Source: an unidentified bacterial endosymbiont (GTDB taxonomy: Bacteria > Pseudomonadota > Gammaproteobacteria > Enterobacterales > Enterobacteriaceae). Taken from it: 64,000 nucleotides of DNA. Below are positions 21,701 through 30,618 of this stretch, piece after piece (position 1 is the first letter of the stretch; each line of letters opens with the position of its first letter). Below the pieces are notes generated by a model. That model searched no databases and was not told the DNA's origin. It saw only the letters and a list, made by a program, of their open reading frames with translations. The stretch lies in NCBI RefSeq assembly GCF_918797525.1, contig NZ_OU963893.1, positions 372,001 to 436,000 on the forward strand. Reading direction: 5' to 3'. The position numbers and the translations under genes were made by a program.

Positions 21701-22780
21701 ATGCAAGCGGCAACTGTTGTGATTAACCGCCGCGCTCTGCGACACAACCTGCAACGTTTGCGTGAACTGGCGCCTGCCAGCAAGCTCGTTGCAGTCGTGA
21801 AAGCGAACGCTTACGGACACGGTCTTATTGAGACCGCGCGAACGCTCCCCGATGCCGATGCCTTTGGCGTCGCCCGTCTTGAAGAGGCTCTCCACCTGCG
21901 TGCAGGGGGGGTCACTCATCCGATTTTGCTCCTCGAAGGCTTTTTTGAAGCCACAGACTTGCAGACCATCGCGCGCCAGCATTTGCACACGGCAGTACAT
22001 AACGAAGAACAACTTGCCGCCCTCGAAGGTGCCGAGCTGAGTGAACCCGTTACCGTCTGGATGAAGCTCGACACCGGCATGCACCGCCTGGGCGTGCGCC
22101 CGGAAAACGCCGGGGCCTTTTATCAGCGTCTGTGTCAGTGCAAAAATGTGCGCCAGCCGGTGAATATCGTCAGCCACTTTGCGCGTGCCGATGAGCCCGA
22201 GTGCGGCGCGACCGAGCAGCAGCTTGCTATCTTTAATGCGTTTTGCGAAGGCAAGCAAGGTATGCGCTCTATTGCGGCCTCCGGTGGTATTCTGCTCTGG
22301 CCGCAGTCCCACTATGACTGGGTGCGTCCGGGCATTATCCTCTACGGTGTATCGCCGCTGGAGGGTAATCCCTGGGGGCCGGATTTTGGTTTCCAGCCGG
22401 TGATGTCCCTTGTCTCTACCCTGATTGCAGTGCGCGAGCACAAAGCGGGCGAGCCGGTAGGTTACGGCGGGACCTGGACAAGCGCACGGGATACGCGGCT
22501 GGGCGTGGTCGCCGTGGGCTATGGTGATGGCTATCCTCGCGCCGCGCCAACCGGCACACCGGTGCTGGTGAATGGCCGCGAAGTTAACATTGTCGGCCGG
22601 GTGGCGATGGACATGATTTGTGTGGACCTGGGGCCGGAGGCGCATGACAAAGCAGGCGATGACGTGGTGTTGTGGGGAGAAGGACTGCCGGTCGAACGCA
22701 TTGCGGAAATAACTAAAGTAAGTGCTTACGAACTGATCACCCGTCTGACGTCGCGGGTTGCCATGAAATACACCGACTAA
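21701..22780 (+). CDS. alr: Alanine racemase (biosynthetic) Alr
   Basis: PLP enzyme making D-alanine for peptidoglycan. 359 residues; PLP lysine in [11 protein letters not shown] (Lys34) and catalytic Tyr in GYGGTW. Begins 16 bp after dnaB, as in E. coli. In E. coli the next gene is tyrB; here an island of about 7.8 kb intervenes. Confidence 0.97.
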
Positions 22781-22786
22781 CTAAAC

Positions 22787-22962
22787 GAGCGGCAAGGCGT
22801 TAACTGCCGCTCGCCTCCCTTCACGCCGCGCTCAGCCATTAACTCTTTCAGATTGCACAGGCTCAGGGGCAGGCGAGGAACCCGCGGGCACACGGGGCAA
22901 TAATGTCGGCGGAATAATTTAAGCGTTAAAAGGATTTTTGAGACAGGGGCATGGTCAGGCAA
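22787..22962 (-). pseudogene. IS6-type transposase N-terminal remnant beside alr
   Basis: A minus-strand frame contains LKLFRRHYCP, then PRLPLSLCNLKELMAERGV. This resembles the N-terminus of IS6/IS240-like transposases (R-H-[YF]-P ... [YP]-x-LSLRxLEEMMAERGV). The part following the AERG motif is missing and the region also carries the hairpin CGAGCGGCA/TGCCGCTCG (22786-22811) that probably ends alr. No inverted-repeat ends were recognised. The assignment rests on a short motif, so confidence is limited. Confidence 0.4.
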
Positions 22963-23033
22963 CGTTGCGAAAAAACAGTATGGTACCTGACCACTTTTTA
23001 TTGCGGCAGAACCTAATGAACGCCTTATCCAGC

Positions 23034-23933
23034 TTACTCTTTAACAAAAAACCAGGAGCTGACAAGAACGGAAATAAATTCCTCGATTATTCTTTCTCTT
23101 TTTTTTAAAAAGTATATTTTTATTTCTATCTTAACGCTATGCTGATTGATGACGAGCGGACATAAAATAATGTTATTTAATTTGCAGTCTGTTGGTTTCA
23201 ATGACTGACTGGAAATTAGGCCGATAACTTCTCCGCGTTCTATGGAGGATAAGTGGTTTTTAATTTCAGGTGTAATAATCACTTCAGCCTCATCAATATC
23301 CTCAAGGTTTTTTTTCAACTCCTGACGCCAGTTTATATCTGTTCTGTCCAGAATGTTTAGTAGCGTAGCGGGTATAATGATAGACTTTTGTGACAATGGT
23401 TTTATTTTGGGCTTTACTATATTTATGGTGGCTGTTTTATATGAGGCTATAGCAATCTCGCTCTTATCATATTGCAATTCCTTATTGGATATAATGATGT
23501 CTAGCTCTCCTGATAATAATTCCTGGGTTATTTCATTATTAAAATCCCTATATATCAATTGACTTATAACTCTCAACTGAGAGTGTGTCAGGTTAGATAA
23601 ACAGTCATGCAAGCAATGCTCAATCGATATGCTATAACCATGACTGGAGCGCGCTGGTTTATTTGCAGGGGTAAACTTATTCATAAAGTGATTTTCTAAC
23701 AGGGTTAATTCATCATAGTAGCGGGAGATAGCATCATAGAGTTCCTTTCCCTCATGCGTAAGATCAACACCGTCACGTCCGCGAAGAAAGAGATTACAGC
23801 CAAGCCTTTCCTCAAGAATTTTGATTCTTCTTGAGAGTGGTGACTTGGTAATGTAGAGTTGCTCAGCACCACTCTTCAACGACTTGTTGCGGGTTGTAAC
23901 TATGAATGATCGTAATAAGTTTGAAACAAACAC
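23034..23933 (-). CDS. LysR-family transcriptional regulator
   Basis: 299 residues, with a GTG start after AAGGGG. The N-terminal winged helix is LKSGAEQLYITKSPLSRRI and EERLGCNLFLRGRDGVDLT. The C-terminal co-inducer domain is divergent and basic. Codon usage is AT-rich compared with the neighbouring alr, suggesting acquisition. The N-terminal half resembles SpvR-like LysR regulators. It is the leftmost gene of the alr-tyrB island and may regulate the LPMO gene or itself; no target is shown by the sequence. Confidence 0.85.
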   Translation of the reverse strand: MFVSNLLRSFIVTTRNKSLKSGAEQLYITKSPLSRRIKILEERLGCNLFLRGRDGVDLTHEGKELYDAISRYYDELTLLENHFMNKFTPANKPARSSHGYSISIEHCLHDCLSNLTHSQLRVISQLIYRDFNNEITQELLSGELDIIISNKELQYDKSEIAIASYKTATINIVKPKIKPLSQKSIIIPATLLNILDRTDINWRQELKKNLEDIDEAEVIITPEIKNHLSSIERGEVIGLISSQSLKPTDCKLNNIILCPLVINQHSVKIEIKIYFLKKRERIIEEFISVLVSSWFFVKE

Positions 23934-24370
23934 GGCATATCCCCTTTTAATTAAATGGGTATTGGAATGATAAAGGTTTATTGAAAATAATTGAATCTTT
24001 AATCATTATGCAAGATTTAAAAACGTTTTTAGCGAGAGGGGAGCGAGCAGGCTGCATATAGCAACAAGTGATATTTCAGGGACGATATACGCTGCACCCG
24101 ACTCTAAGTAGTGAAGCAAGGATTACTGAAAAATATGACTTTTATTTGTGGATGAAACGTTTTATATAATAAATGAGCATTCCCGGTGGTCAATGTTTAT
24201 GCTGCACTGCACATTTGCGCAATACAGGTCGAAGATGATTTTATTGGTTAAACTAATAATCTCGTGGCGTTATTGCCATGAGAGAGGATTGTATGGTGAC
24301 ATTATATTTATTAAAGATGACCGGGATAACCGGCCATCTTGATTTTCTTATTATTAAAACATTCGTATAA
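23934..24370. other. Gene-free AT-rich stretch between LysR gene and LPMO gene
   Basis: 437 bp with no convincing coding region. A 64-codon frame at 24148-24342 has no ribosome-binding site or recognisable motif. The LysR promoter must lie at its left end, and the right end holds the LPMO 3' region. Confidence 0.6.
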
Positions 24371-25816
24371 TTATATTGCGCGCCACAGTGTCTCGGAGTC
24401 GGCACCGCCAGGTGACCAGTCATAAACATGAGCGGTGTGGGTCTGCAGGCAAATCCAGTTCCGACCGCGGTAGCTTACCCGGGTTCCTACTGGATAGGTT
24501 GTATTAAGTTTCCACTCCGGGTAATCTCCCTCGCCCGGACCAGGGCCTGGGTCCGAACCTGCCAGGGTAGTGGCGCTCAGGGTATTACTCGCTGCTGAAC
24601 GCCGTCCGTATGCATCCTCCGCGATAACATGGTAATTATATGTAGTACTGTACTGCAACCCGGTATCCTGGAACGAAAGCTGTGAAGCCGGAACACGGGT
24701 TATCTCGACGTTATTACGGAAGATCAAATAGGCAGCCAGCGTACTTGACGTTGTCGATGAAGGTCCCCACATCAGGCTTACGCTATTTTCAGAGACACCC
24801 ATACTGTGCAAATTTGTCGGAGGAGTTGGTTTCGTCTGATTGCCGCCGCTGGGTAATGTTTCTACCGACAGAGATGAACTCCGGGCAGACTCCTTAATCG
24901 CAGTGACGGAATACTGGAACCTTGTATTCGCCGGTAAACTTGAATCTGTCCAGCTCAATCCACTGGTCGTGGCATGGTACGTACCGTTACGATAAATCTT
25001 ATAGTAAGAGACATTCGCAGAGGATGCGTTCCAGGCAAGCGATACCGAACTGGCAGTGACATTCACTACGCGCAGATTATGCGGCGGCAGCGGGCAAAGA
25101 CAGTCGCCATTGCCGCCGTCTCCACCACCGTCTTCACCGCCGTCTCCACCACCGCCTTCACCACCGTCTCCACCACCGCCTTCACCCACAAAGTTCAGAT
25201 CAATAACCTGGTAGAAAGCATTGCCGGTATCGGCGACTTCCCAGACGGCCAGAATGACATGGTAACCGCTGCGTTCCGGTAATATAACATCATGCACCGT
25301 GGGTTGCGGCGGAGTTAATGCTGTACCATGACTCCAGAAAGGTTGTTCAGTTAGTTCAACCTGATAAAAAGGCTTGTCTTCAAACTGGGCGCGGCTAAGA
25401 GGCAGATTTGGATTCCAGTTCGGTCGCGTAATAAAATAGTTCCAGCGCCGGGTTAAGTGCGTGGCAGAATAAAACCAAGAAATCGTTAAGACGTCTGATG
25501 ATAGCACATCATGTTTTTGCCAGTGAGTACCCGGCGCGTCCAAAAATTCACCATTTCCCTGGTTCGCACTGCCAATTTTGCCATCAGGCGGCGGTAATGC
25601 GTTAGCCTGATCCTGGGGTGCTATAGGATCACGAAGGCCCGAATTAAATGCAGGGAAAAATTTACCCGCCTCACGCTGGTTAAGCTGGCCTGTATCGAGC
25701 TGCCCGGCTTGCCAGGCAAAATATGCCCGTGATGCCGGGGAGAAAACATGGCCATGGAATGGGGTAACATTTGATTGCTTATCCTTGGAGATAATAGTTG
25801 GTGAACGGTATGTCAT
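24371..25816 (-). CDS. Lytic polysaccharide monooxygenase (AA10) with two FN3 domains and a chitin-binding module
   Basis: The start is ATG 25816, six bases after AAGGA; 481 residues. Residues about 20-200 form an AA10 copper oxidase closely resembling chitin-active CBP21. First His in FHGHVFSPASRAYFAW, second copper His in SATHLTRRWNYFITRPNW, then SGYHVILAVWEVADTGNAFY. A Gly/Asp/Glu-rich linker with CLCP follows, then two fibronectin type III domains. The last 50 residues (YPEWKLNTTYPVGTRVSYRG ... W) fit a CBM5/12 chitin-binding module. AA10 enzymes need a free N-terminal His, yet the 19 residues before it (MTYRSPTIISKDKQSNVTPF) lack a hydrophobic core. Export is therefore non-Sec, or the leader is removed another way. 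Confidence 0.88.
   Translation of the reverse strand: MTYRSPTIISKDKQSNVTPFHGHVFSPASRAYFAWQAGQLDTGQLNQREAGKFFPAFNSGLRDPIAPQDQANALPPPDGKIGSANQGNGEFLDAPGTHWQKHDVLSSDVLTISWFYSATHLTRRWNYFITRPNWNPNLPLSRAQFEDKPFYQVELTEQPFWSHGTALTPPQPTVHDVILPERSGYHVILAVWEVADTGNAFYQVIDLNFVGEGGGGDGGEGGGGDGGEDGGGDGGNGDCLCPLPPHNLRVVNVTASSVSLAWNASSANVSYYKIYRNGTYHATTSGLSWTDSSLPANTRFQYSVTAIKESARSSSLSVETLPSGGNQTKPTPPTNLHSMGVSENSVSLMWGPSSTTSSTLAAYLIFRNNVEITRVPASQLSFQDTGLQYSTTYNYHVIAEDAYGRRSAASNTLSATTLAGSDPGPGPGEGDYPEWKLNTTYPVGTRVSYRGRNWICLQTHTAHVYDWSPGGADSETLWRAI
25116..25187 (-). repeat. Three tandem 24-bp repeats in the LPMO linker
   Basis: Units at 25116-25139, 25140-25163 and 25164-25187 differ by only one to three bases. 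They encode 8-residue Gly/Asp/Glu repeats in frame, between the catalytic domain and the first FN3 domain. Confidence 0.85.
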
Positions 25817-26760
25817 AATATTATTCCTTATAGCATTGAACAATTAATGAATGATTAATTTGGAACCTTTGCGAGTAACTCGTTTAATAGGCTGTTTTTT
25901 GTTTTTCCTACCTCCATTAGCTCATGTTGTCTGACGTCATTTGATAGATAATTGAAACTTTAGTGCAGTATTACGTGGCTTCCACCTTACATCCCTGAGG
26001 CGTGTTTTAATGATTTTTCTTTTATCTTTTATGAAGAAAATGTTCTTTCAATTATCAAGTGAAATAAATGAAAACATTGTCGGTAAGTATTGTCAGTATT
26101 CGCAACATTACAAATTCAAATATTGGAATCGTAGGTGTTAAAAATTAGCACTGTGATGTTTCTTTCTTTATAATTGCTAAAAATCAGATGGTTGAAGTTT
26201 GTTAAAGGAGGAGGCACATTTAAAGACAATATTGTTTTTCGTTTGAAAGTAGGGCTCTGTCGCTTCAAACCTCGCCAGATAACTGGTTGTCTTTATGAGA
26301 TGCTACCCAATCATGCCTTTGCTCAAAAACCTCTAAGCGCTGGCATTATCCCATCGATGTTATTGCTAAAGTGTCTGCTGATACCTCGCCTGTCCCCTGA
26401 GCTTGTGCAATCCGGAAGAGGTAATGGCTGAGCATGGTATCATTGTTGACTATTCCACCAGCACCGGTGGGTTAATCGTATGGAGCCACTTCTGGATAAG
26501 GCCTCCAGAAGCAAAGGCATGATCGGGTAGCATCTCAAACAGACAGCATCTTATCTGACGAGGTTTTATGCGGCAGAGTCCGCTCTCTCCCTATCCGACC
26601 AAAAAATGAGCGTTTTTGTATTGCTTAAATATATATTTCTGTCCAATGACATATGACAAATGCGGTTTTCTCAATTTGTTTTTAAGACTCATACTTATAA
26701 CGGCTTAAGAAAGTGGTGTCGTTTTGATGGAAAAATAAACTTATTGAGGTTATTTCAGTT
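25817..26760. other. Long non-coding stretch between LPMO and LuxR-type genes
   Basis: About 940 bp, AT-rich apart from the middle. It contains the LPMO promoter side on the left, a 242-bp element with 28-bp inverted repeats at 26296-26537, and the promoter of the LuxR-type gene on the right. No intact gene was found. Confidence 0.7.
26296..26537. mobile_element. 242-bp element with near-perfect 28-bp inverted repeats and IS6-like remnant
   Basis: The arms are 26296-26323 (begins TGAGATGCTACCC) and 26510-26537; they match at 27 of 28 positions after reverse complement. The 186 bp between carry, in shifted frames, pieces such as HYPIDVIAKVSADTSP, EEVMAEHGIIVDYST and HRWVNRMEPLLDKA. These resemble the N-terminal region of IS6/IS240-family transposases. 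The gene is broken by several frameshifts. Either this is a MITE-like derivative or one arm is an inverted partial duplication. Confidence 0.6.
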
Positions 26761-27381
26761 ATGAACATTTTGATGATTGATGAATTGCCGTTATATATTC
26801 ACGGCATGAAGGTTGAGCTCCAAAGGATAATGCCTGAAAGTCAGGTTATAGACGCTAATAATTTTGATCAAGCATGCGCTTTACTGTCAAATGAGAGTGT
26901 TGACCTGATACTACTCGATGGTGATATGGAATGCGCCCCATTGCTCCCCCTGCTCAGCAGGGAGTACCCACGAATACCGGTGGTACTGATGTTAAGGAAA
27001 GTGACAGGGAAGGTGTTTAGCTTCTATCTTAAACAAAACATTAAAGGGGTACTAACCCGGGATCAGCCAGTGGATAAAATTAGTCAAATACTGAAGATGG
27101 TTGATGCCGGGATCATCTGTTTTCCTGAGCAGATTGCCCTGTCGATGGATAAAAAGGATAGCGACGATACCGTGAGTCAGTTGAGTCATCGGCAGCAGGA
27201 GGTTCTGGAGTTGCTCGCGAAAGGCGGTACCAATAAGCAAATCGGCCGCCAGTTGAATATCAGCGCCGGAACCGTGAAAGTTCATCTGGAATCTATTTTT
27301 AATCGTTTACAGGTTAATAATCGAACTCAGGCAGCCAGGCTTTACTTTAGTTATATTAATAATCACGTAATTTCTGAATAA
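26761..27381 (+). CDS. LuxR/NarL-type response regulator (orphan)
   Basis: 206 residues. The receiver-like domain starts MNILMIDELPLYIHG, with the acidic pair Asp-Glu at 7-8, a probable phosphoacceptor Asp in LILLDGDM (about residue 54) and a Lys in VLMLRK. The HTH at about 140-200 reads LSHRQQEVLELLAKGGTNKQ then SAGTVKVHLESIFNRLQV, a typical LuxR C-terminal domain. No histidine kinase is adjacent. It is convergent with the holin/endolysin operon and lies beside the LPMO, so it is a reasonable candidate regulator of the island. Confidence 0.88.
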   Translation: MNILMIDELPLYIHGMKVELQRIMPESQVIDANNFDQACALLSNESVDLILLDGDMECAPLLPLLSREYPRIPVVLMLRKVTGKVFSFYLKQNIKGVLTRDQPVDKISQILKMVDAGIICFPEQIALSMDKKDSDDTVSQLSHRQQEVLELLAKGGTNKQIGRQLNISAGTVKVHLESIFNRLQVNNRTQAARLYFSYINNHVISE

Positions 27382-27469
27382 TATATTGCACTTTACTTCA
27401 CACAGAAACTATTTTATAGCCTTTGCTTAATAATGGCGCGAAAGGTTTTCACCGTTTCGCGCCATCGTA

Positions 27470-27760
27470 TTATTTAATTTTAAAGATAAAATAGCCGAAA
27501 ATGATCAAAAGTGTACCGAAGTCTTGTAATAACCAAAAAGGAATGCTATTAGTAACATTATCAACACCGGTAAACAAAAAATGAATGTTCATTCCGCTCT
27601 GCGCAAATAATCCGAACGCAATGGCCGCCAGACCAAACTTGTAGATAAAATGCAGGGGGGTTATTTTGCGGCTGTATGCACAAAAAAGAATAATAAATGA
27701 CGTAGACATATCGACCATAATGGTGAAAAACAGCATCCACCCATCCAGGACGCTATTCAT
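27470..27760 (-). CDS. Small holin-like membrane protein (second)
   Basis: 96 residues from ATG 27760, with GGAG upstream; a longer frame reading back into the preceding gene is rejected. Three hydrophobic segments are visible: LDGWMLFFTIMVDMSTSFII, FIYKFGLAAIAFGLFAQSG and FWLLQDFGTLLIIFGYFIF. It ends with a short basic tail KIK. It begins immediately after the upstream holin-like stop, so the two are translationally linked. Size and topology suit a holin or antiholin, but the sequence was not matched to a named family. Confidence 0.55.
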   Translation of the reverse strand: MNSVLDGWMLFFTIMVDMSTSFIILFCAYSRKITPLHFIYKFGLAAIAFGLFAQSGMNIHFLFTGVDNVTNSIPFWLLQDFGTLLIIFGYFIFKIK

Positions 27761-27761
27761 A

Positions 27762-28169
27762 TTAATCTCCGCTTTGTTTACGACTGGTGGAGCCTGCGGC
27801 GGATGACCTTTCACGGCTAACACGTTTTTTCAGCTCTCCGGCAACGTCAAAAATGTCCTTTTGTTCGTGGCGGCGGAAAAAATTCGCCAGCCAGACAATT
27901 AACCCGTTGCTTATCGCGCCAACGATATAACCCAGCCCCAGAGTCGCGTCCGCTTCATTTAAGTCGATTTTCAGCCACCGTGCGGTAAAGCCGCCGAGAG
28001 CAAAGGCGGCACACATGCTGATACTGCCGATGATAACCCCGGCGATAAAACGACTATGCTGCTGAAGTTTTCGCGGCTGCCAAAAGAAAGAGACGCTGAC
28101 GCCGCCAAAGAGACCGGCAACGGCAAGGAGCCCTTCGTTAATCAGGGTAGGGGTGAGAAAACTGTTCAT
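27762..28169 (-). CDS. Holin-like membrane protein
   Basis: 135 residues with hydrophobic segments at about 8-28 (INEGLLAVAGLFGGVSVSFF), 40-62 (FIAGVIIGSISMCAAFALGG) and 75-97 (LGLGYIVGAISNGLIVWLAN). A charged cytoplasmic tail rich in Arg, Lys and Ser follows. This is the pattern of phage class I holins. It follows the endolysin and barnase-fold genes in the same operon, which supports the reading. AGGAG lies upstream of the start. Confidence 0.65.
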   Translation of the reverse strand: MNSFLTPTLINEGLLAVAGLFGGVSVSFFWQPRKLQQHSRFIAGVIIGSISMCAAFALGGFTARWLKIDLNEADATLGLGYIVGAISNGLIVWLANFFRRHEQKDIFDVAGELKKRVSRERSSAAGSTSRKQSGD

Positions 28170-28221
28170 TATAACTCCTTAGTAACCGGCTCCACGTCTT
28201 AGCGGGCGTGGAGCCGTAGGG

Positions 28222-28704
28222 TTACTGGCAGGGGGTAACTTCAACAAAATGTTGATAGTTATCCGGTGTGAAAAAACGCTGTTGGCCTGAGAGGGTATAG
28301 ACCAGCCGTTTAGGGCTTCGGTAACCGCGCGAGACGTCTACATCAGCGCTGTACCACTTCACGCTGGCGGGCAATGTCTTGTGCTGATACGCATCGCCGC
28401 CAATCCACTTATTGTGGGTAGGTTTTAAGCCCCACAGCGTCTCTGAGTCAGAACCCGACCAGCCGAGACGTTTTGCTTCCTCGCTGGTGATATATTTCGC
28501 CGGCAGACGGCCCGTTGTATTGAGCGTTCTTAGCGTTGCGCTGAAATCCGCCACATTATTAATACCGGGTGAGCCGTTATTGTTTAGAAATGTGTTGATC
28601 TCATTCACTTCTTTTTCGCAGGTCACCGTTTCGGCAGCAGTGCTGAAATGGCTGAATAGTGCCATGCATAAAACGAGTGAACCGGTCCGAATTGCTTTTT
28701 TCAT
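28222..28704 (-). CDS. Secreted barnase-fold protein with degenerate active site
   Basis: 160 residues with a Sec signal (MKKAIRTGSLVLCMALFSHF, cleavage near STAAE). The mature part aligns by eye with barnase: RLPAKYITSEEAKRLGW matches KLPDNYITKSEAQALGW. Later GGDAYQH..., VSRGYRSPKRLVY and TPDNYQHF match the core. Barnase catalytic Glu73 aligns with Ser in KWYSADV, His102 aligns with Asn in TPDNYQ, Lys27 with Ser and Arg59 with Lys. Arg83 and Arg87 are kept. The protein is thus probably not a classical guanyl-specific ribonuclease. No barstar-like gene is next to it. Confidence 0.7.
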   Translation of the reverse strand: MKKAIRTGSLVLCMALFSHFSTAAETVTCEKEVNEINTFLNNNGSPGINNVADFSATLRTLNTTGRLPAKYITSEEAKRLGWSGSDSETLWGLKPTHNKWIGGDAYQHKTLPASVKWYSADVDVSRGYRSPKRLVYTLSGQQRFFTPDNYQHFVEVTPCQ

Positions 28705-28730
28705 CTTTATTTCCTTGCTTATTTATCGGG

Positions 28731-29180
28731 TCAACTAAGAAACAGTTTCATTTCAGCTTCGCGACGACGCGTAAGCCCTGGCAGAATTTTACCGCCAGCT
28801 TTATTCCAGCTTTTGAATTGCAGTGCGGCGCCCTGAATATCACCAGCGTTGAGTTTTTTTAGCAGGGTTGATTTTTTGAGATTGCCGGTTCCCACGTTGA
28901 AGGCAAGCGAGACCAGCGCGTCAAACTGATTTTGCGTAACCGTCACGCCGACCATTTTCTCTACCCCCTGTTCTGTTCTACGCAGGTCTTTGCGAAGCAG
29001 GTTTTTAGCCTCGCCGGTTGTGATTTTAATGAGTTTTTCCATCTCCTTTGTCAGGATTAAATGGCCGTAGCCAATGGTCCATAAACCGACGGCATCGCGA
29101 TAACGTTCCAGCTTTAGCCCTTCAAACTGGCAAATCAGCTGTACGCCTTTATCGCCGGTACTATTTGGTTGTTTATTCAT
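28731..29180 (-). CDS. T4-type lysozyme / endolysin (GH24)
   Basis: 149 residues. The catalytic Glu-8-Asp-5-Thr motif of GH24 is visible in CQFEGLKLERYRDAVGLWTI followed by GYGH. QNQFDALVSLAFNVG and GGKILPGLTRRREAE are also family signatures. There is no signal peptide or SAR anchor, so it needs a holin to reach the periplasm. Its ATG overlaps the stop of the upstream DUF2589-like gene (TAATG), indicating translational coupling. Cleaves peptidoglycan glycan strands. Confidence 0.92.
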   Translation of the reverse strand: MNKQPNSTGDKGVQLICQFEGLKLERYRDAVGLWTIGYGHLILTKEMEKLIKITTGEAKNLLRKDLRRTEQGVEKMVGVTVTQNQFDALVSLAFNVGTGNLKKSTLLKKLNAGDIQGAALQFKSWNKAGGKILPGLTRRREAEMKLFLS

Positions 29181-29779
29181 TACGGCGTCTCCTCTGCTTT
29201 CGGAAGGGGAATGACTTTATTGGTGTATTCATCAATTAAACGCATTACGCTTTCTGGCGGTTCGAGTGCGGTAAATTGCATTTCCACATCAATGTGGCGA
29301 CTGTCACGCCCACCCTGGGTTTCGCTGGAAGGGGAAAGGCTGACGTGAAAGCGGCCAAATTCGTTCTCGCCTGATTGTCGGGAAGGGGCCTGCATCCCTT
29401 CAGAGCGAATTGTCAGATTGACCTTCATCTTTTCCAGCATCAGCCCGCGCGGTGTCGACATCGCGACGAGCGGGAGATCAAAGTAGTGCTTTTCATCCAG
29501 CGTCAGCTGTACGGTGCGGGGGATTAACGAACCGTCATCGGCCGGTTCGAAAAAGGGATCCAGCGCCTTCATATATTGCTGAGCGATGAGTTCGTTCGCG
29601 GCCGTTGCCGCGTATTGCATACCACGCGTGATATCCTCAAGCGAAATGGGGACACCGGGAATATTGGCTGGAGGGGGCGAGTTTCCCTGCTCCGGAGGCG
29701 GTGCATCCGTGGCCTCGTTGCCCGTCTTGTTTTCGGGCTCTTCGTCCTTCCCGCCGCGTAGCCATGTTTTGAAAGACAT
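29180..29779 (-). CDS. DUF2589-like protein, long form
   Basis: 199 residues from ATG 29779, seven bases after AGGAG; an ATG nine codons upstream lacks such a site. The N-terminal 45 residues are Pro/Glu/Asn-rich and probably disordered. From ISLEDITRGMQYAATAANEL onward it is a beta-rich domain ending LEPPESVMRLIDEYTNKVI. The closing motif parallels the neighbouring gene product (RQEPPEALQRVIDFLT), so the two are probably paralogues of the DUF2589 type. Function unknown. Confidence 0.6.
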   Translation of the reverse strand: MSFKTWLRGGKDEEPENKTGNEATDAPPPEQGNSPPPANIPGVPISLEDITRGMQYAATAANELIAQQYMKALDPFFEPADDGSLIPRTVQLTLDEKHYFDLPLVAMSTPRGLMLEKMKVNLTIRSEGMQAPSRQSGENEFGRFHVSLSPSSETQGGRDSRHIDVEMQFTALEPPESVMRLIDEYTNKVIPLPKAEETP

Positions 29780-29854
29780 AATTCGCTCCTGAAAAAGGGC
29801 CACCACCGGCGGCCCATCGGTTACTTAATCGCACTGAAATCGCGGCGAGAAACG

Positions 29855-30412
29855 TTATTGCGCGGCGACAGGCTTGGTTTTGGCGTTGGTGAGGAAATCA
29901 ATAACGCGTTGTAGCGCTTCAGGTGGCTCCTGGCGTTTAATCTGGGTATGAATGGAGTATTTAGCTCGTGTATCGGTCGAACGGGTCTGTTCGGATTTAT
30001 GCGATACTTTACCGGTCATTTTTGCTTTGAATACGCCCCAACCGACGGAGGCTTCAACAGAGGCTTCCGCTTCGGTGCTGCTTGAGCTGGCTTCGCTCTG
30101 GCTGACCTCAAGTTCAAAATCGATCGTCCCTTCTTCAATACAAATGATGGGATGGGTAACCGCCGCCAGCAGCGGAATGCTCATTTTGCGGGTGACACTG
30201 CCTTTATTGACACCCTGTTCATCTACCACCGTTTCGTCGTAGTCAAACTCGATAGCGACGGCCTTGCCATCTTTAATACAGACCGAGAGCAGGAAGTCGG
30301 TATAAGACTTGCTTGCCTGGACCTGCGCTTTGATCATTGCCTGCAGCGGGCCGCCGATCATGTGTTCCAGCGGCAGGGCATTAATGACTGAACCAATAAA
30401 TTGTGAATCCAT
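29855..30412 (-). CDS. DUF2589-like protein, short form
   Basis: 185 residues, the first gene of the leftward operon. Begins MDSQFIGSVINALPLEHMIG then GPLQAMIKAQVQASKSYTDF, and continues with beta strands SIPLLAAVTHPIICIEEGTI. A Ser/Glu-rich stretch (SQSEASSSSTEAEASVEAS) and a final RQEPPEALQRVIDFLT follow. The pattern fits DUF2589 (PF11655) from memory; no biochemical role is known to me. No signal peptide. The gene is separated from the next by 75 bp containing a GC-rich hairpin. Confidence 0.65.
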   Translation of the reverse strand: MDSQFIGSVINALPLEHMIGGPLQAMIKAQVQASKSYTDFLLSVCIKDGKAVAIEFDYDETVVDEQGVNKGSVTRKMSIPLLAAVTHPIICIEEGTIDFELEVSQSEASSSSTEAEASVEASVGWGVFKAKMTGKVSHKSEQTRSTDTRAKYSIHTQIKRQEPPEALQRVIDFLTNAKTKPVAAQ

Positions 30413-30618
30413 AATGAGAACTCCTTGAGTGAATGAATGCGCGTTTGCGCAGGACTCACATTACGGGAGTAGGAAAGAGGACAATATTGGGTAAATGACA
30501 GGGCGGGAGGATGCAAAAAACCTATGCCAATCGCAGGATAATCTGAAGGGGTGGTGTTACGTCCTCTTCCGGTTTATTGTTGAAATCCCTGCCTTATCGA
30601 ATTCCGGAGAATCATCGC

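Follow-up and report, generated by a model that had tools for sequence, protein, structure and literature searches.

Why does a lytic polysaccharide monooxygenase (LPMO) without a signal peptide stand next to a set of lysis genes in a bacterial chromosome, and do the two belong to one device for protein release? The question was raised by a stretch of 64,000 nucleotides from an Enterobacteriaceae endosymbiont (contig NZ_OU963893.1, positions 372,001 to 436,000; the whole stretch is called the window below), in which alr (21701-22780) and tyrB (from 30577) border an island. Comparison of this island with related loci revealed its main features: (i) the island consists of two modules, an operon headed by two DUF2589 proteins (D1 and D2) that is accompanied by a LuxR regulator, and an LPMO with a LysR regulator; (ii) the LPMO and LysR genes are evidently a separate, later insertion; and (iii) it is an even call whether the operon with its LuxR gene constitutes a regulated chromosomal lysis cassette of the type 10 kind, with exchangeable cargo, into which the LPMO has been plugged.

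The D1-D2 operon and the slot beside it

An earlier note on this DNA had listed the genes between alr and tyrB, and all of them were recovered at their coordinates as open reading frames (ORFs) and, holA and holB excepted, in Pfam searches, where the bit scores quoted here exceed the cut-off except for Ribonuclease. The flanks are dnaB-alr and tyrB-aphA-uvrA (gene names by eye), and the genome behaves as Enterobacter, with D1 98% identical to a protein of E. soli and E. chuandaensis. Every island gene except that for LuxR is encoded on the minus strand. The first operon gene encodes D1 (29855..30412; DUF2589, 94.3 bits); a short inverted repeat in its conserved leader (30438..30451, minus strand) recurs almost unchanged in 12 of the 13 upstream regions that were aligned. 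D2 (29180..29779; DUF2589, 45.3 bits) has a proline-rich N-terminus, and its stop codon overlaps the start of the gene for a GH24 endolysin without a signal peptide (28731..29180; Phage_lysozyme, 166.1 bits; PHROG endolysin), below called the lysozyme. It is followed by a barnase-fold protein with an apparent signal peptide and without the catalytic Glu, the pseudo-barnase (28222..28704; Ribonuclease, 22.9 bits against a cut-off of 24), and by two proteins, holA (27762..28169) and holB (27470..27760), the latter either a second holin-like or an antiholin-like protein. Since these six genes share one strand and are separated by short gaps or overlap, they were read as one operon. The LuxR/NarL-type regulator gene (26761..27381, plus strand; GerE, 75.6 bits) is convergent with the operon and divergent from the slot that precedes alr.

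DUF2589 was found in 14 of the 61 Enterobacter genomes searched, always as two matches. Twelve of the 61, the source genome included, carry the operon at alr-tyrB with the order D1-D2-lysozyme-pseudo-barnase-holA-holB and the LuxR gene retained; in the other two DUF2589-positive genomes the pair is located elsewhere, as LuxR-D1-D2-lysozyme with a protein of 323 amino acids (aa). Among the 11 other islands, identity to the window is 94-98% for D1, 80-88% for D2, 80-86% for the lysozyme, 64-87% for holA, 53-78% for LuxR, 54-72% for the pseudo-barnase and 50-81% for holB; alr and tyrB are 88-92% identical. By this measure, D1 is the most constrained part of the operon. In one island (L283) holA is interrupted, with two pieces of 69 and 57% identity.

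No capsid, tail, integrase or replication genes were recognised between alr and tyrB by ORF, Pfam and PHROG analysis; the FN3 repeats of the LPMO match PHROG tail-protein models (1.3e-18), a match that we read as a shared FN3/Ig-type repeat. The earlier statement that this is not a prophage thus stands for the alr-tyrB site, and has to be tempered by the occurrence of related D1-D2 pairs in phage contigs, where D1 is 61-65% identical and the lysozyme type of the window is missing. A portal-type gene cluster was found in 7 of 12 viral contigs with D1-D2, the 12 including look-alikes (L147 and L152-L154) and three Kosakonia-type islands (L143-L145). Phage structural genes around homologues, named in the earlier note as counter-evidence, do exist in viral contigs; none was found at alr-tyrB. 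A phage origin of D1 and D2 is likely. The operon could be viewed as the lysis module of a prophage in decay, retained by chance and without a role in secretion, a view that fits the phage-type endolysin, the portal gene near related pairs and the interruption of holA in L283. It is nevertheless improbable: 12 Enterobacter genomes, and other genera as well, share the gene order together with the regulator, D1 shows no less conservation than alr and tyrB, and the operon is accompanied by no other phage genes.

Among the viral contigs, D1-D2 pairs were observed in L146-L154; in L147, the pair is followed by the portal gene and preceded by a gene for a coiled-coil-like protein whose C-terminus has a hydrophobic segment. 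By sequence, D1 has no relative in the PDB; its predicted structure is weak and the model gave no fold match, and the predicted structure of D2 is as weak. Among the papers searched, one mentions DUF2589, a transcriptome study of Archaeoglobus.

All 12 Enterobacter islands at alr-tyrB, none of them in a prophage, have a gene in the slot between LuxR and alr. In the 11 islands other than the window it is a single gene on the operon strand, encoding a hydrolase-like protein of 376-381 aa (eight islands), a protein of 184 aa (one) or a protein of 164 aa (two); in the window the slot holds the LPMO and LysR genes. For the three non-LPMO protein types, no clear signal peptide was seen by hydropathy and by eye, and no Pfam match at E <= 0.1 was obtained. 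The hydrolase-like protein has 659 relatives; the 120 listed include proteins of Proteus, Photorhabdus, Yersinia, Serratia and Pseudomonas, mostly without a name. We infer that the slot genes encode cargo of the operon.

Five DUF2589-free Enterobacter genomes were compared at the same site. In two of them the alr-tyrB gap is 79-81 bases, and in the other three a PnuC/NadR-like pair (two genomes) or an insertion sequence (IS; one genome) precedes tyrB, with gene names assigned by eye. The alr-tyrB site appears as an insertion hot spot taking different DNA (L313, L314 and L316; gene names by eye).

The pseudo-barnase brings in another explanation, namely an antibacterial or abortive-infection role of the operon, which would combine lysis with secreted RNase-like proteins and have toxins encoded in the slot. 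Besides the presence of the pseudo-barnase itself, which matches barnase chains from E 5.9e-10, this explanation is favored by a secreted protein resembling RNase A (PF18431, as tested in L045), which is encoded downstream of holB in other genera, in a cluster of eight loci that includes duplicates and viral contigs. However, Glu is absent at the barnase catalytic position, which we take to be Glu73 in residue numbering, in all 33 aligned pseudo-barnase rows, and this absence from the whole set argues for a role other than that of an RNase. No immunity-like gene was identified, and PADLOC models gave no match at E <= 0.01 for the operon proteins save generic DNA-binding ones for LuxR. A defence device is thus unlikely.

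Arrival of the LPMO and its leaderless family

The LPMO (24371..25816; AA10-FN3-FN3-CBM5, with LPMO_10 at 122.8, fn3 at 55.8 in two stretches and CBM_5_12 at 41.1 bits) lacks a signal peptide, as had been noted before, and its ATG at 25816 lies behind a plausible ribosome-binding site (by eye). The LysR regulator (23034..23933; Pfam) is 27-31% identical to the LysRs of the chitinase-LPMO-holin-lysozyme loci described below. The two genes are flanked by IS6-type remnants: about 125 bases to the left of LysR (22830..22953, minus strand; no Pfam match of their own) are an inverted copy, 76% identical, of a stretch to the right of the LPMO (26312..26433, plus strand) that lies within a region showing IS6-type transposase residues, and an inner inverted repeat (26252-26323 / 26510-26581) is present on the right flank. 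A second LPMO copy in the same genome (G000 C1 3842933-3844051) is 96% identical in the catalytic domain and 84% identical over about 100 bases upstream, and a related piece beside it in L187 is DDE_Tnp_IS240. In L187 (6931-8079), this second leaderless LPMO has one FN3 domain fewer and lies between Phage_holin_8-type genes and IS pieces. Among the DUF2589 loci of the Enterobacter set and of the wider scan described below, the latter rechecked, this LPMO was found in the window only. The IS6-type remnants, the second copy and the absence from every other DUF2589 locus examined thus mark the LysR-LPMO pair as a late arrival, and the idea of LPMO and cassette as one evolved unit finds no support.

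The same observations suit a different view of the island, in which the lysis cassette serves its usual cargo and the LPMO is a chance IS6-borne passenger, released otherwise (for example, through the holin that lies close to its second copy) or never released. Its presence in the slot of the window alone, the remnants on both sides, its own LysR and the upstream DNA shared with the second copy favor this view. On the other side, the LPMO gene occupies, with unchanged orientation, a slot that holds leaderless genes in other islands, and its family shows a link with lysis genes in further genomes. On balance, we consider the passenger view possible but doubtful.

The family linkage was established as follows. 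Hydropathy and inspection by eye revealed no signal peptide in 119 of the best 120 LPMO relatives out of 290, a set that includes the query and, among the best 120, many proteins from related Pseudomonas. Nine of 18 leaderless LPMO loci have a holin or endolysin gene no more than 6 kb away, compared to none of 20 AA10 loci with signal peptides (Fisher 0.0003), although the queries for holins and peptidases, and four of those for GH24, were taken from the LPMO loci themselves; a GH24 profile built from DUF2589 loci alone gave 6 of 18, window included, versus 0 of 20 (p 0.007). The 18 loci are not independent, as the window and L187 belong to one genome, L246 and L247 to one genus, and several to Sodalis-like genomes; they also include two broken copies (L250 and L251) and a locus that ends about 100 bases past the LPMO (L245). 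The 20 controls were chosen as the top AA10 matches of the order Enterobacterales, all with a signal-peptide-like N-terminus. For the multi-domain type of leaderless LPMO, lysis genes are nearby in six of nine loci.

The lysis parts vary in kind, comprising Phage_holin_3_1, Phage_holin_8, LydA-type and HP1-type holins as well as GH24 and M15_4 hydrolases; in L187, the holin has a Pfam match and the lysozyme-like protein has none. The association is therefore not one inherited block. Chitinase, LPMO, holin and lysozyme genes occur in a row in L240, L241 and L190 (plasmid pHS1 of Sodalis praecaptivus, where the chitinase is split), and with gaps between them in L189, an Enterobacter huaxiensis plasmid. 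As in type 10 loci, the neighbours of one single-domain LPMO relative include a LydA-type holin, an M15_4 peptidase and a LysR. Another adjoins a holin and a lysozyme of phage type, and a gene that looks terminase-like by eye is in the vicinity. That a single enzyme family has unrelated holins and hydrolases as neighbours suggests, within this small sample, a common requirement for lysis, and type-10-like release seems a fair reading of this linkage. A literature search for leaderless LPMOs or for LPMO-holin pairing, covering titles and the beginnings of abstracts, found no report.

LPMOs bind copper through an N-terminal histidine. In the window LPMO, 20 residues of the translation precede His21, and this residue and His120, both invariant in the LPMO_10 domain of a 15-row alignment, are presumably the copper-binding histidines. 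Leaderless LPMOs have a median of about 16 extra residues before this position (His1). For 114 of the 120 relatives counted (four had no readable His1), the preceding residue is Arg or Lys in 87, Phe, Tyr, Leu or Met in 25 and Gly in 2; all 28 representatives below 70% identity have Arg, Phe, Leu, Tyr or Met, and the broken copy L251 has Cys. Among the signal-peptide AA10 controls, Ala (17) or Gly (3) precedes His1 (n = 20). The residues of the leaderless family suggest processing after release and would fit cleavage by trypsin- or chymotrypsin-like proteases; an unprocessed LPMO could serve only as a chitin binder. A more specific proposal, which we advance tentatively, is that cytoplasmic pro-LPMOs depend for their exit solely on the programmed lysis of sister cells, and that proteases of the trypsin or chymotrypsin type, from a gut or co-released, then mature them outside by a cut just before His1. 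In this view, the DUF2589 cassette would be a separate, widespread class of lytic release module whose exchangeable slot has here received a pro-LPMO.

DUF2589 loci elsewhere and a candidate release mechanism

A scan of wider scope yielded 95 confirmed D1 relatives, of which the best 80 loci were kept, with mechanical gene calls. The operon is present at alr-tyrB in Pseudescherichia, and at other sites in Kosakonia, Rahnella, Ewingella and Leminorella; an integrase is found near some of the Kosakonia loci. The Burkholderiales loci have LuxR-D1-D2-lysozyme, often with the pseudo-barnase. Pectobacterium has D2-lysozyme-holA together and D1 apart. In Pseudomonas, D1-D2 come with a Mor-type regulator (PF08765, as tested in one Vibrio locus of the cluster), and in some cases with a pesticin-type lysozyme. 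Of the best 80 loci, 48 have a lysozyme of GH24 or pesticin type no more than 4 kb from DUF2589, and 23 have holA at this distance. The co-occurrence of DUF2589, lysozyme and holin genes outside prophages, which the earlier note had proposed to look for together with the LPMO, was thus found in this branch of DUF2589.

Several of these loci have features of their own. In the Pseudescherichia island L068, the lysozyme and pseudo-barnase are present, neither holA nor holB was found, and a leaderless cysteine-peptidase-like protein (by eye) is encoded. In Pectobacterium (L076-L081), D1 lies a few kb from D2-lysozyme-holA, and in L076, the locus tested, it is located among nonribosomal peptide synthetase/polyketide synthase genes, next to proteins of the AMP-binding, condensation and ketoacyl-synthase types. 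In Pseudomonas L108-L142, a Mor-type activator is encoded upstream of D1-D2, the same large genes adjoin in many loci and lysis genes are mostly missing. In L290, L291 and L107 (Cedecea and two Enterobacter), LuxR-D1-D2-lysozyme is followed by a leaderless protein of 322-323 aa, a candidate cargo that is nitrilase-like by eye and has no Pfam match in L107.

These observations are consistent with the following mechanism. LuxR would switch on the operon in some cells, holA and holB would open the inner membrane, and the GH24 enzyme would then reach and cut the wall, so that cytoplasmic proteins without export signals could leave the lysed cell. The gene beside LuxR would be exchangeable cargo, the usual one having been replaced here by the IS6-flanked LysR-LPMO. 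The released LPMO would lose its 20-residue N-terminus, turning His21 into the copper-binding N-terminal histidine.

A number of results weigh against this mechanism. No lysozyme is encoded nearby in 32 of the best 80 DUF2589 loci, above all in Pseudomonas, or in 9 of the 12 viral contigs. In a less biased, order-wide sample, where 15 of the 18 other positive genomes were looked at, a lysozyme is near DUF2589 in 4 of 15 loci and absent nearby in 11. DUF2589 is therefore not simply a lysis part, and its link to the lysozyme appears to hold for the present branch and not for the whole family. The proteins holA and holB match no known holin family in Pfam, NCBIfam or PHROG: no Pfam or NCBIfam match exceeds the cut-off, the PHROG matches are weak and of unknown function, and both are called holin-like for their position, conserved within the operon, and their topology of three hydrophobic segments each. 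No spanin was found, with no lipobox in Met-start ORFs of at least 30 aa on the operon strand at 27301-30600 (i-spanins were not searched by family), whereas YenLC of Yersinia and SmaLC of Serratia have spanins. The other 9 of the 18 leaderless LPMO loci have no lysis gene nearby. Finally, the LPMO arrived together with a LysR and upstream DNA of its own, and its second copy lies near Phage_holin_8-type proteins, so that it may use another route.

If the lysis cassette reading is true, the operon represents a lysis-based release system of a new design, headed by two conserved DUF2589 proteins and equipped with an exchangeable cargo slot. It would also give a reason why a whole LPMO family is without signal peptides, and raises the question of how such an LPMO gains an N-terminal histidine that is free, as its chemistry requires.

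Comparison with type 10 and chitinase-LPMO systems

Type 10 systems combine a holin, a hydrolase and an adjacent cargo, and lytic release of signal-less proteins was described in Yersinia entomophaga and Serratia (PMC10847048). Release without lysis was argued for the Salmonella type 10 system (PMC10109510; PMC13284979) and in a review (PMC9527704). In S. marcescens, chiWXYZ assists the release of Cbp21, an LPMO that bears a Sec signal (PMC5778951).

Like Serratia chiWXYZ (SmaLC), Yersinia YenLC and Salmonella STM0015-0016 (PMC5778951, PMC10847048, PMC10109510), the window has genes for a peptidoglycan hydrolase and for holin-like proteins that are not part of a prophage, a dedicated regulator and leaderless or chitin-active cargo; its GH24 peptidoglycan hydrolase lacks a signal peptide, as expected of a type 10 system. 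The distinguishing features of the window are a GH24 lysozyme in place of the ChiX/PepB endopeptidase, two unclassified holin-like proteins, two DUF2589 proteins, the pseudo-barnase, a LuxR/NarL regulator and the exchangeable slot. With candidate holins and no spanin found, we call the cassette a type-10-like variant. The resemblance to type 10 systems proposed in the earlier note is thus retained for an operon conserved outside prophages and for a leaderless LPMO family linked to lysis genes; for the LPMO and cassette as one evolved unit it finds no support.

The four loci L240, L241, L190 and L189 share with the window the leaderless LPMO family and, in three of them, a related LysR. In these loci the LPMO is located behind a GH18 chitinase without an evident leader, the holins are of the Phage_holin_3_1 or Phage_holin_8 type and no DUF2589 was seen, whereas in the window LysR and LPMO stand alone beside a different cassette. 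The CBP21-like AA10 LPMOs with signal peptides share the LPMO_10 domain; their signal peptide ends with Ala or Gly before His1 in every control, whereas the leaderless family has Arg, Phe, Tyr, Leu or Met there nearly throughout.

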